Positions 10,431 to 13,632 of a DNA stretch of 13,632 nucleotides are shown here, piece by piece. The position numbers and the translations under genes were made by a program. The stretch comes from an uncultured Pseudomonadota bacterium (lineage in GTDB: Bacteria; Pseudomonadota; Gammaproteobacteria; Burkholderiales; SG8-39). The stretch covers positions 1 to 13,632 of the forward strand of contig CAITSH010000401.1 in the NCBI GenBank assembly GCA_903895005.1. Direction: 5' to 3'. Positions within the stretch are counted from its first letter, which is position 1, and every line of letters begins with the position of its first letter. Below the pieces are notes generated by a model. It saw nothing but the letters and a program-made list of their open reading frames with translations. It made no database searches and was not told the DNA's origin.

Positions 10431-10436
10431 TATAAT
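10431..10436 (+). promoter_or_regulatory. Perfect -10 box (TATAAT) before the aldolase-mtnA operon
   Basis: TATAAT lies in the 45-base gap before ATG 10464. Transcription would begin near 10443, leaving a leader of about 20 bases that contains AAGGG (10450-10454), spaced well before the ATG. The expected -35 position (about 10408-10413) does not match consensus and falls inside the 5' end of the divergent acetyltransferase gene, so an activator may be needed. Confidence 0.45.
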
Positions 10437-10463: not shown

Positions 10464-12437
10464 ATGCAGAGTTTATGGAGTGACAGCGAGGCGGCGGGCT
10501 TTTCCGGAGACCTGGGTCTTCGGGTGTACACCTCGCGCTTGCTCGGGCGCGACAAATCGCTGGTAATGCATGGCGGCGGTAACACCTCGGTAAAAATACT
10601 TCACCGCAACCTCTTCGGTGAAGACGAGGTGATGCTTCATATCAAGGGCAGTGGCTGGGACCTTGAAACCATCGAGGAGGCGGGCTTTGCGCCGGTGCGC
10701 CTCGCGCATCTGCAACGCCTAGCCGGGCTCGACGCACTCTCTGATCCGCAAATGGTCAATGAAATGGCCACCCATCTGCTGAGGGCGAGCGCCCCCCCTC
10801 CGTCTGTCGAGACGATTCTGCACGCATCCCTGCCCCACAAGTACGTGGACCATACGCATGCGGACGCGGTCCTGGCCGCGAGTGATACGGCGGACGGTGA
10901 AGCGCGTATTCGCGAGATTTACGGTGACAGTGTTGTTGTGATTCCCTACCTGATGCCCGGGTTCGATCTGGCGCAATATTGCGCAAAGGCGTTTCCGCGC
11001 GAATCGGGCCCACAAACCATTGGCATGGTGCTTTTGCAGCACGGCATATTTTCATTTGGCGAAACGGCACGCGAATCCTATGAACGCATGATCGAGCTGG
11101 TGGCGCGCGCAGAGGCTTACCTTGCAAAACATCGCGCACGGGATACCGCCCAGGCACCCGTCGGCACCACGCCGCGATTTGACCCGAAAGCGCAGGCCGA
11201 ACTGCGTCAGGTTATTTCCCGTACGGCGGGCGGCCCGATGATCCTGAAGACTTGCTCAAACACGAGAACCCACGCTTTCGCCCGGCATCCGGCGGTGGCC
11301 GCGATTTGCGCTCAGGGCCCCATCACCCCGGATCACGTCATACGTACCAAACGGTTGCCGATGCTGGGCACCGATGTCGGCGCGTATGCCGATGACTACA
11401 AGGCCTATTTTGCGTTACACGAGCCGCAGGCGAAGGAGCGCAAATCCATGCTGGATCCCGCTCCACGCGTTGTGATTGATCCTGCCTTCGGCATGGCCGT
11501 GGTCGGACGCAGCGCCAAGGATGCGGCGATTGTCGAGGAACTCTACGAGCACACTATCGACGTCATGCTACAGGCCCAATCGCTGGGCGGTTATCGCGCA
11601 CTTCCGGCGCGGGATATTTTCGAGCTCGAGTACTGGGATCTCGAGCAGGCCAAGCTAGGCAAGTCGGGCAAGCCCCCAGTTTTTTCGGGCGAGGTCGCGG
11701 TTGTCACCGGAACTGCCTCGGGCATAGGTCGGGCGTGCGTTGCCTCGCTGCTAGAGCGCGGTGCTGCAGTCGTTGCGCTTGATGTTAATCCGGAGGTTCG
11801 CACCGCCTGGGCGCGTACCGATTATCTCGGCCTGGTATGTGACGTAACCGACGAGGCGCAAATCCAGGCGGCCTTGCACCGTGCCATCGCGGCGTTTGGT
11901 GGCGTTGACATGCTCGTTCTCAATGCGGGAATTTTTTCGGCGAACCGCAAGATCGAGGACCTGCAAAGCGACGAGTGGCGCAGGGTGATGAGCATCAATC
12001 TTGACGGGAACCTGTTCCTGATGCGCGCCTGTCATCCTTACCTCAAGCTCGCCCCGCGCGGCGGACGCGTTGTGGTGATAGGTTCCAAGAACGTTCCCGC
12101 CCCGGGGCCGGGCGCCGCGGCTTATTCGGCATCCAAGGCTGCACTGACGCAATTGGTGCGTGTGGCTGCACTTGAGTGGGGTGGCGATGGCATTCGCATC
12201 AATACGCTGCATCCCAATGCCGTATTTGATACGGCATTGTGGACGGACGCAGTTCTCGAGCAGCGCGCCCGCCATTACGGCATGAGCGTGCAGAATTACA
12301 AAACCAACAATGTGCTGAAAACCGAAGTGACCAGCCGCGATGTCGCAGAACTTGCGGCGGAAATGTGCGGCCCGCTGTTTGCCAAGACCACCGGTGCGCA
12401 ACTGCCGGTTGACGGGGGAAATGAACGTGTCATCTGA
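10464..12437 (+). CDS. Bifunctional class II aldolase / short-chain dehydrogenase
   Basis: 657 residues, a fusion of two enzymes. Residues 1-385 are a class II (zinc) sugar-phosphate aldolase of the RhaD/fuculose aldolase superfamily: HGGGNTSVK (36-44), HIKGSGWDL (59-67), metal His130 and His132 in VDHTHADAV, and His193 in LLQHGIFSFGE. Residues 405-657 are a classical SDR: TGTASGIG cofactor loop (415-422), Asp440 suggesting NAD(H) over NADP, NAG 487-489, Ser541, and Tyr554-x3-Lys558 in YSASK. The architecture matches YuxG and rhamnulose-1-phosphate aldolase/lactaldehyde dehydrogenases. No rhamnose genes are present. Instead it overlaps mtnA by 17 bases, so the likely substrate is 5-methylthioribulose-1-phosphate or 5-deoxyribulose-1-phosphate, giving DHAP plus an aldehyde that the SDR domain would reduce or oxidise. 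Domains are seen; the substrate is inferred. Confidence 0.92.
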   Translation: MQSLWSDSEAAGFSGDLGLRVYTSRLLGRDKSLVMHGGGNTSVKILHRNLFGEDEVMLHIKGSGWDLETIEEAGFAPVRLAHLQRLAGLDALSDPQMVNEMATHLLRASAPPPSVETILHASLPHKYVDHTHADAVLAASDTADGEARIREIYGDSVVVIPYLMPGFDLAQYCAKAFPRESGPQTIGMVLLQHGIFSFGETARESYERMIELVARAEAYLAKHRARDTAQAPVGTTPRFDPKAQAELRQVISRTAGGPMILKTCSNTRTHAFARHPAVAAICAQGPITPDHVIRTKRLPMLGTDVGAYADDYKAYFALHEPQAKERKSMLDPAPRVVIDPAFGMAVVGRSAKDAAIVEELYEHTIDVMLQAQSLGGYRALPARDIFELEYWDLEQAKLGKSGKPPVFSGEVAVVTGTASGIGRACVASLLERGAAVVALDVNPEVRTAWARTDYLGLVCDVTDEAQIQAALHRAIAAFGGVDMLVLNAGIFSANRKIEDLQSDEWRRVMSINLDGNLFLMRACHPYLKLAPRGGRVVVIGSKNVPAPGPGAAAYSASKAALTQLVRVAALEWGGDGIRINTLHPNAVFDTALWTDAVLEQRARHYGMSVQNYKTNNVLKTEVTSRDVAELAAEMCGPLFAKTTGAQLPVDGGNERVI

Positions 12438-13428
12438 AGCTGCTGCGGTACAAACCCTGCGCTGGGTCGATGGCCGTCTTGAACTCATAGACCAACGACG
12501 CTTGCCGCACGAAATCGTCTACGTCTGCTGCCGTAACGCCGCGGAAACGGCCGCGGCAATACGCGATATGGTGGTCAGGGGCGCGCCGGCGATAGGCTGC
12601 GCAGCCGCCTTTGGCATCGCGCTCGAGTCGGCTGCAGGAGGCAACCTCAATGCAGCGCACGCAGCGCTTGCCGCAAGCCGGCCTACCGCGGTCAACTTGT
12701 TCTGGGCCTTGCAACGCATGCGCGAAGCCATTGCCTCCGGGCGCCCTGCCCTGCAGGAGGCGCTGGCCATTTACGACGAGGACATTGCCATCAATCGCGC
12801 CATGGGCGGTTTCGGTGCGGCACTAATCGCCGATGGCGCGCGCATCATGACCCATTGCAACGCCGGGGCGCTGGCGACTGCCGGCCACGGCACGGCGCTG
12901 GGCGTCATCCGTTCGGCGCGCGACGCCGGCAAACGTATTTCGGTCGTTGCCAATGAGACCCGCCCTTACCTGCAGGGTGCGCGCCTGACGGCCTGGGAAA
13001 TGGTGCAGGAGCAAATCCCGGTCACCCTCGTCACCGACAACATGGCCGGCCACCTGATGCAGCAAGGCAAGGTCGATGTGATCGTCGTCGGCGCGGACCG
13101 CGTTGCGGCCAACGGCGACGCTGCCAACAAGATCGGCACCTACACGCTGGCGGTGCTGGCGGCGCGCCACAAGATTCCGTTTTACGTGGCAGCGCCGGTG
13201 TCGACCTTCGACCTGGCGATTTCCGACGGCAGCCACATCCCGATTGAGGAGCGTCATGCCGATGAAGTGACAGGTCACGGCGGCAATCGCTGGGCGGCGC
13301 ATGGTGTCCAAGTCTTCAACCCGGCTTTTGACGTCACCCCGGCGGATCTCATTACCGCGCTGATTACTGAGCGAGGCGTCATTCAAACACCCAATACGGC
13401 GCGGGTTGCCCAGCTCATTGGGCACTGA
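12421..13428 (+). CDS. mtnA: S-methyl-5-thioribose-1-phosphate isomerase
   Basis: 335 residues from ATG 12421, which has a GGGGGAA ribosome site directly upstream inside the end of the aldolase gene; earlier in-frame starts only add antisense-like sequence. MtnA converts methylthioribose-1-phosphate to methylthioribulose-1-phosphate (and 5-deoxyribose-1-phosphate to 5-deoxyribulose-1-phosphate). It belongs to the eIF2B-alpha/MtnA family. Family motifs are VVRGAPAIGCAAAFG (51-65), MTHCNAGALATAGHGTALG (143-161) with catalytic Cys146, TRPYLQGARLTAWE (180-193), VTDNMAG and VVGADRVAANGDAANKIGTY (222-241) with catalytic Asp226. It also has SHIPIEER near the end. The usual mtnB, mtnC, mtnD and mtnK/mtnP genes of the full methionine salvage pathway are not here; the partner is the aldolase-dehydrogenase. 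Confidence 0.94.
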   Translation: MNVSSEAAAVQTLRWVDGRLELIDQRRLPHEIVYVCCRNAAETAAAIRDMVVRGAPAIGCAAAFGIALESAAGGNLNAAHAALAASRPTAVNLFWALQRMREAIASGRPALQEALAIYDEDIAINRAMGGFGAALIADGARIMTHCNAGALATAGHGTALGVIRSARDAGKRISVVANETRPYLQGARLTAWEMVQEQIPVTLVTDNMAGHLMQQGKVDVIVVGADRVAANGDAANKIGTYTLAVLAARHKIPFYVAAPVSTFDLAISDGSHIPIEERHADEVTGHGGNRWAAHGVQVFNPAFDVTPADLITALITERGVIQTPNTARVAQLIGH

Positions 13429-13487: not shown

Positions 13488-13500
13488 CTATTTTGCGAAT

Positions 13501-13632
13501 TTAAGTTCGAAGCGCAATGGGTATGGGCTTGAGGCCGAAGAGTACCTCGTGCGGGGTCAGGTAGCCAAGACACTTGCGTGGTCGTTGGTTTAGCTGGTCT
13601 GCAATCGATCGGAGTTTGGCTTCGGTTAGCCG
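13501..13632 (-). CDS. IS30 family transposase, C-terminal fragment (cut by window edge)
   Basis: The last 43 codons and TAA stop of a minus-strand gene that continues off the right edge. The translation contains LNQRPRKCLGYLTPHEVLFG, the highly conserved C-terminal end of IS30-family DDE transposases, whose final catalytic Glu normally lies just upstream of this segment, then ends PIPIALRT. The three catalytic DDE residues are outside the window, so intactness cannot be judged. The gene is transcribed toward mtnA. Confidence 0.9.
   Translation of the reverse strand, partial: RLTEAKLRSIADQLNQRPRKCLGYLTPHEVLFGLKPIPIALRT
13501..13632 (-). mobile_element. IS30 family insertion sequence, one end (minimum extent)
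   Basis: The transposase fragment shows that an insertion sequence enters from the right. Its terminal inverted repeat should lie between 13429 and 13500 but cannot be fixed without the other end; the stretch AGCTATTTTGCGAATTTAAG (13487-13506) is the most likely inner part of that repeat. Only the protein-coding extent is given. Confidence 0.75.

Follow-up and report, generated by a model that had tools for sequence, protein, structure and literature searches.

A 13,632-nt stretch of DNA from an uncultured Pseudomonadota bacterium (contig CAITSH010000401.1; hereafter the window) carries a gene for a class II aldolase fused to a short-chain dehydrogenase/reductase (SDR), and the end of this gene overlaps mtnA, the gene for methylthioribose-1-phosphate isomerase. 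The fusion protein is probably the aldolase of a dihydroxyacetone phosphate (DHAP) shunt for 5'-methylthioadenosine (MTA) and 5'-deoxyadenosine (5dAdo), a grading that excludes the redox direction of the SDR half. An initial annotation of the sequence had proposed this assignment, and comparative genomics supports it: relatives of the fusion are linked with mtnA, mtnP and mtnK in several orders, fusion and mtnA co-occur, and linked genomes had no mtnC or mtnD match over cut-off. Two further parts of that annotation fared less well, in that the fusion architecture is not new and the aldehyde-reductase label given to the SDR half is not settled.

In the known DHAP shunt, as described in the excerpts at hand, MtnA is followed by a stand-alone aldolase, Ald2 or DrdA, which yields DHAP plus acetaldehyde or methylthioacetaldehyde (PMC10986504, PMC6079011, PMC5893883; further sources, likewise in excerpt, are PMC8102628, PMC12632272 and PMC6302742). 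In the pathway proposed here, MtnP, or a nucleosidase plus MtnK, would supply methylthioribose-1-phosphate or deoxyribose-1-phosphate, which MtnA would isomerise to the ribulose-1-phosphate form. We infer that the fusion's zinc aldolase half (residues 1–400) would cleave this form to DHAP and methylthioacetaldehyde or acetaldehyde, and that the NAD-dependent SDR half (residues 407–657) would convert the reactive aldehyde before its escape.

The fusion gene and its overlap with mtnA

The open reading frame (ORF) of the fusion, at 10464–12437 on the plus strand, has 657 codons. Its class II aldolase half occupies 10464–11663 (+) and its SDR half 11682–12437 (+), the latter recognised by PF13561/PF00106 and by a fold match; the Pfam domains of the whole are Aldolase_II and SDR. 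The protein belongs to NF006196 of the PRK08324 group, scoring 1058.5 bits against a cut-off of 831 over residues 1–657 of 657. Used alone at an E-value limit of 1e-60, the aldolase half matched only PRK08324-group fusion models and TIGR02632. By family analogy we take H130, H132 and H193 to be zinc ligands and E116 the acid/base of the aldolase half. In the SDR half, D440 is presumably the NAD-type acidic residue, and N512, S541, Y554 and K558 are presumably catalytic; these five residues are kept in all 31 mtn-linked proteins compared. An acidic residue such as D440 points to NAD as cofactor. The predicted structure, built from a 31-sequence alignment, has a mean predicted local distance difference test (pLDDT) score of 89.7; in it residues 1–221 match the aldolase PDB 3m4r and residues from about 404 to 657 would form a classical SDR. 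The fold alignment covers the aldolase part with the single chain 3m4r and barely covers residues 222–403. Residues 241–372 of the model form a strand-strand-helix repeat that by eye resembles the end of the aldolase domain (187–223), perhaps an old partial duplication. Neither the SDR and aldolase domain matches nor a fold search of the predicted model indicated a substrate.

The adjoining mtnA, at 12421–13428 (+), scores 426.8 bits with TIGR00512 (cut-off 279) and 447.2 with PRK05720 (cut-off 271), and matches PDB 1t9k with an E-value of 3.4e-111. The two genes share 17 nt, as first annotated, and a Shine-Dalgarno-like GGGGGA at 12414–12419 (+) lies inside the fusion gene, one base before the mtnA ATG.

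Linkage of fusion relatives with mtn genes

Relatives were surveyed in the best 80 of 133 stretches that encode a fusion relative (the named loci). This neighbourhood survey, suggested with the initial annotation, placed mtnA near the fusion in 29 of the 80. On the same strand, the fusion precedes mtnA at 17 of these linked loci and mtnA lies upstream at eight, with a gap of more than 1 kb in L070 and L078; the remaining four comprise one with the order fusion-mtnP-apt-mtnA (L055) and three with the genes on opposite strands (L038, L050, L074). Other salvage genes join the cluster in further orders at alphaproteobacterial loci: mtnP-mtnA-fusion in L059, L060 and L080, mtnP-apt-mtnA-fusion in L063, and mtnK-mtnA-fusion in L067, L070 and L076. 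NCBIfam models identified mtnP in L055, L059 and L080 (in L080 with matches below the model cut-offs), apt in L055 and mtnK in L070 and L076; the rest were identified by tblastn. On a Ruegeria plasmid (L083) mtnA directly precedes the fusion, and on a Mariluticola plasmid (L085) mtnKA lies 4 kb away. Because several orders are found in distant clades, inherited synteny alone is hard put to explain the linkage. In a tree of the proteins, from which, as from the residue tables, those shorter than 560 amino acids were left out, mtn-linked members occur in all three large clades, and the starred branches of this tree, made by a quick method, force at least 11 changes of the linkage label; some loci truncated at a contig end may carry a false unlinked label.

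The fusions of L001 and L005, two metagenome assemblies labelled Bordetella parapertussis, group with other betaproteobacterial metagenome assemblies, and the label looks doubtful. In L042, from a Chloroflexi assembly, the fusion is in two pieces with 56% (first) and 82% (second) identity to the window protein, which would reflect a frameshift, an error or a foreign piece.

The nearest named relative, G001, is 85% identical, and 98 genomes of its family were sampled. Counting pieces cut by contig ends, 70 of them have the fusion; 79 have mtnA and 67 have both, a co-occurrence with a Fisher p of 2e-8 when kinship is ignored. In 63 of the 67 the fusion lies directly upstream of mtnA, with a profile gap of 11–279 nt. 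As for the other four, G125 and G139 hold partial genes only, and in G052 and G097 the two genes fall on separate contigs, mtnA being grouped there as mtnP-apt-mtnA.

Salvage and rhamnose genes in relatives' genomes

Whole-genome searches covered 50 genomes, comprising all 29 linked and 21 of the 51 unlinked loci; counts of mtnP, mtnC, mtnD and rhamnose genes refer to relatives only, the window organism's own genome lying outside the set. A match to mtnA over cut-off was present in 48 of the 50, and an MTAP-family match in 49: 25 were over cut-off, 44 reached at least 223 bits, and five were weak (81–108 bits) and may be other phosphorylases. In these assemblies of unstated completeness, no linked genome (0/29) had mtnC or mtnD over cut-off, mtnB not being among the genes searched for. 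Both genes exceeded cut-off in the same five genomes, all unlinked (0/29 vs 5/21, p = 0.0096). Below cut-off, mtnD matches of 21–25 bits (cut-off 27) were seen in four of the 50 genomes, three of them linked, and mtnC matches of 20–31 bits (cut-off 128.1) in 11 further genomes. The rhamnose mutarotase gene rhaM was found in six of the 50, one of 29 linked and five of 21 unlinked (p = 0.07). The checks proposed in advance on rhamnose genes and mtnBCD, run here on relatives, did not refute the shunt.

Redox direction of the SDR half

For residue comparisons, the mtn-linked proteins (31 rows) were set against 39 rhamnose-type proteins, namely nine plasmid proteins and 30 Chloroflexota matches to the RhaEW model TIGR02632, a set defined by model score rather than proven function. 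Eight of the plasmid proteins are encoded beside a rhamnose isomerase gene; the ninth, L100, has a sugar kinase as its neighbour and bears the name rhamnulose-1-phosphate aldolase; among the 30 from Chloroflexota, the short fetched flanks gave a rhaI or rhaB match in 19 and none in 11. L085 was kept out of the mtn-linked residue set for the 4-kb distance of its mtnKA, though scored as linked in the tree, and the unannotated L121 was also excluded.

The SDR half had been called an aldehyde reductase, and its sequence fits either direction. On balance we would lean slightly towards oxidation, to methylthioacetate or acetate, because the assayed RhaEW fusions of the family oxidise their aldehyde with NAD+. 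That many Beta-, Gamma- and Alphaproteobacteria without mtnBCD share a widespread oxidative branch, in which the MtnA product would be turned into DHAP, methylthioacetate or acetate, and NADH, with the toxic aldehyde passed between the fused domains, is put forward tentatively.

The same shunt, with the same aldolase step, might instead end in reduction of methylthioacetaldehyde to 2-(methylthio)ethanol and of acetaldehyde to ethanol, an outcome that we hold somewhat doubtful. Family precedent would point to oxidation and the Rhodospirillum pathway, with its alcohol product, to reduction. The linked proteins all share N512, S541, Y554 and K558, and residue 512 is Leu in 30 of the 39 rhamnose-type proteins, a difference that would fit reduction; yet eight of the 39 have Asn there (one has Met), including five Chloroflexota fusions beside a rhaB match (L123–L127), so residue 512 is no marker of direction. 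Asn-512 had looked clean as a reduction marker on nine rhamnose-type proteins (Leu in 8/9) and failed on the full 39. Ketoreductases and alcohol or hydroxysteroid dehydrogenases make up many of the 50 fold matches listed, but oxidising SDRs (N-acetylmannosamine dehydrogenase and pyridoxal 4-dehydrogenase) are also among them, and fold resemblance says little on direction. RhaEW of C. aurantiacus, in the excerpt available, oxidises lactaldehyde with NAD+ (PMC3870299).

Evidence weighing against the shunt, and other substrates

Several observations weigh against a DHAP-shunt role for the fusion. No mtnA was seen at 51 of the 80 fusion loci; at least eight of these 51 break off within the fusion or no more than 230 bases past it. 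For ten Chloroflexota relatives, the flanks that were fetched, two of them short on one side, gave no match to mtn or rha genes, and mtnA was not significantly commoner in the genomes of these ten (9/10 vs 22/32, p = 0.25). The five unlinked genomes with mtnC and mtnD carry the fusion as well. In the G001 family, 12 of the 79 mtnA-bearing genomes have no fusion, and nine of ten fetched fusion-less genomes keep mtnA after the TANGO2/NRDE and GNAT genes (L087–L095); this conserved neighbourhood indicates that mtnA works there without the fusion, which argues against strict dependence. One site in the family has thus either lost or gained the fusion, and its presence or absence there is clean. 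Matches to PF00596 were numerous in all 23 genomes searched, and the ten fetched pieces did not identify a substitute for the fusion in mtnA-only genomes. Further, none of the 98 family genomes, whether they carry the fusion or not, had mtnC over cut-off, so that its absence in the family is not specific to fusion bearers; below cut-off it was matched in 24 of the 98, and the best match (81.9 bits) lies at the end of a contig in G129, a genome that lacks both the fusion and mtnA. Stereochemistry is a further point, since rhamnulose-1-phosphate is 3R,4S and the ribulose-1-phosphate substrates are 3R,4R; the fusion aldolase would therefore need another, or a looser, stereopreference than RhaE. 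No assay of this fusion subfamily was found in the literature searched.

Some relatives, moreover, adjoin genes of other sugar contexts (glpD and ABC transporter genes, lsrF, or a ribokinase-like kinase with a split transketolase), from which it follows that substrates drift within the fusion family. On Rhizobium leguminosarum plasmids (L082, L084) the fusion is flanked by glpD, genes of a sugar ABC transporter and a gene for glycerol-3-phosphate dehydrogenase, with neither mtn nor rha genes annotated around it. In an uncultured alphaproteobacterium (L072, 8014–12972) it has a ribokinase-like kinase on one side and the two halves of a transketolase on the other; this is another sugar pathway with the same type of fusion, and the genome (G049) gave no mtnA match. 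Plasmids of Sinorhizobium meliloti and Thalassospira (L103, L104) encode a solo aldolase half of about 415 amino acids, lacking an SDR, directly after lsrA/C/D/B-type transporter genes, and in Shinella (L086) a fused relative lies beside lsrF; these contexts suggest a further substrate related to autoinducer-2 (AI-2)-like sugars.

A broad deoxyketose-1-phosphate aldolase/dehydrogenase, with another sugar phosphate as its main substrate and the mtnA linkage as a side use, would accommodate the 51 of 80 relatives not near mtnA, the ten unlinked Chloroflexota loci and the neighbours just listed, and class II aldolases are called promiscuous in the excerpt seen of PMC6302742. We nevertheless judge it unlikely, since three different mtn genes are linked to the fusion, in varied orders and in more than one clade, and since, among those genes of the unlinked loci that were annotated, no single other pathway was seen to recur across clades.

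A rhamnose role of the fusion is very improbable

With the same domain order and evident homology, and with relatives labelled 'rhamnose utilization protein RhaD' by JGI, the fusion might be read as RhaEW (rhamnulose-1-phosphate aldolase/lactaldehyde dehydrogenase), its adjacency to mtnA being meaningless. This is very improbable, and a rhamnose role was rejected on the model cut-off, residues 164 and 198, the tree, and gene context. The window protein scores 433.5 bits with TIGR02632, below the cut-off of 567.75. Position 164 is Met in 31/31 mtn-linked and Arg in 39/39 rhamnose-type proteins, and position 198, five residues after a zinc-ligand histidine, is Phe in 31/31 and Trp in 39/39; position 20 is Arg in all 31 linked proteins and Leu (36), Val (2) or a gap (1) in the rhamnose type. 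With arginine replaced by a hydrophobic residue, the site would be better fitted to a methyl or methylthio tail than to the lactaldehyde end with its hydroxyl. Most of the remaining 52 rows, which are unlinked or were not judged, resemble the linked ones, with M164 in 49 and F198 in 43. Among ten NF006196-like Chloroflexota proteins M164 occurs in seven and F198 in eight, so the signature failed this outside test and is weaker outside Proteobacteria. Glu rather than Asp at position 116 was also tried as a rhamnose marker and failed, the 39 rhamnose-type proteins having 26 Glu and 13 Asp. Four plasmid proteins of the rhamnose type make up a side of the tree by themselves, with support of 100, and, as noted above, rhaM was found in a single linked genome.

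That the aldolase half is instead an MtnB-like dehydratase of methylthioribulose-1-phosphate, with the SDR acting on the diketone product, is scarcely credible: MtnB is of the same class II aldolase superfamily (PMC6302742, in excerpt), but the later enzymes MtnC and MtnD had no match over cut-off in 29/29 linked genomes and the family precedent, RhaEW, is an aldolase.

Surroundings in the window

A single candidate promoter had been annotated ahead of the fusion. The TATAAT at 10431–10436 (+), a possible −10 element with no matching −35, may be meant; a consensus scan ahead of the fusion found no promoter. The initial annotation was right that no rhamnose genes are near, none occurring among the 16 window ORFs scanned, and the window likewise holds neither an MTA/5dAdo phosphorylase nor a nucleosidase plus kinase. 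The neighbours with Pfam matches are housekeeping or unrelated: divergent GNAT, TANGO2/NRDE, DUF4936, GCV_T-like, YceG, thymidylate kinase, DNA polymerase III delta-prime type, PilZ, TatD, ankyrin repeats, DUF1178 and a helix-turn-helix protein. Directly downstream of mtnA, 13496–13632 (−) encodes a C-terminal protein end of 44 residues with no Pfam match, which we take to resemble an IS30-type transposase.

Significance and comparison with known systems

If the DHAP-shunt assignment is true, it would provide both a substrate and a pathway for a large enzyme subfamily whose name is generic and which one database often files under rhamnose utilisation; at least 8000 homologues were scored in a JGI search, and the architecture is known for the 120 matches listed. 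It would also explain the disposal of MTA and 5dAdo in many bacteria with mtnA and without mtnC/mtnD. The redox direction decides the exit of the methylthio group, as methylthioacetate or as methylthioethanol, the latter turned by other bacteria into volatile methanethiol and ethylene. The oxidative branch, if true, would form a major route, so far unrecognised, by which both by-products of S-adenosylmethionine leave, in place of the alcohol seen in Rhodospirillum.

The NCBIfam models NF006196 and NF006192 bear the generic name 'bifunctional aldolase/short-chain dehydrogenase', with no substrate or pathway. The window protein and that of L055 are full-length members of NF006196 over cut-off. 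Among linked alphaproteobacterial proteins, all four that were scanned (L059, L076, L080, L083) exceed the cut-off of NF006192.

A fused aldolase/aldehyde reductase dedicated to the shunt had been put forward as possibly uncharacterised; the type of fusion itself is not new, since RhaEW of the same family was assayed in 2013 (PMC3870299). As given in the excerpt at hand, the C. aurantiacus enzyme converts L-rhamnulose-1-phosphate to DHAP and L-lactate with NAD+ and forms neither product without it, and RhaEW is needed for rhamnose use in B. subtilis (PMC3870299). For RhaEW it has been suggested that the output of the aldolase depends on the SDR. RhaEW (TIGR02632, NF006189) and the window protein have two domains in common, arranged in the same order, and share membership of related models in the PRK08324 group, the zinc-ligand histidines and the SDR catalytic residues, and the two-step chemistry on a 1-phospho-2-ketose proposed for the window protein would be analogous. 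The window protein differs in M164, F198 and R20, in scoring under the TIGR02632 cut-off, and in its linkage to mtn rather than rha genes. The architecture is thus already known; its use in a DHAP shunt seems undescribed, no description of a fused aldolase/SDR in that role having been found in the excerpts searched, PMC10418091 included, a scope outside which most subscription papers and the 2020 survey by North and others fall.

With the Ald2/DrdA shunt of R. rubrum, E. coli ATCC 25922 and B. thuringiensis, the proposed pathway shares a class II aldolase that releases DHAP and comes after MtnA, the MtnP or MtnK variants, and gene clusters in which the remainder of methionine salvage can be missing. 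Ald2 and DrdA are described as separate enzymes, DrdA as fuculose-aldolase-like (PMC6079011, PMC10986504), whereas the window protein is a RhaE-type aldolase fused to an SDR.

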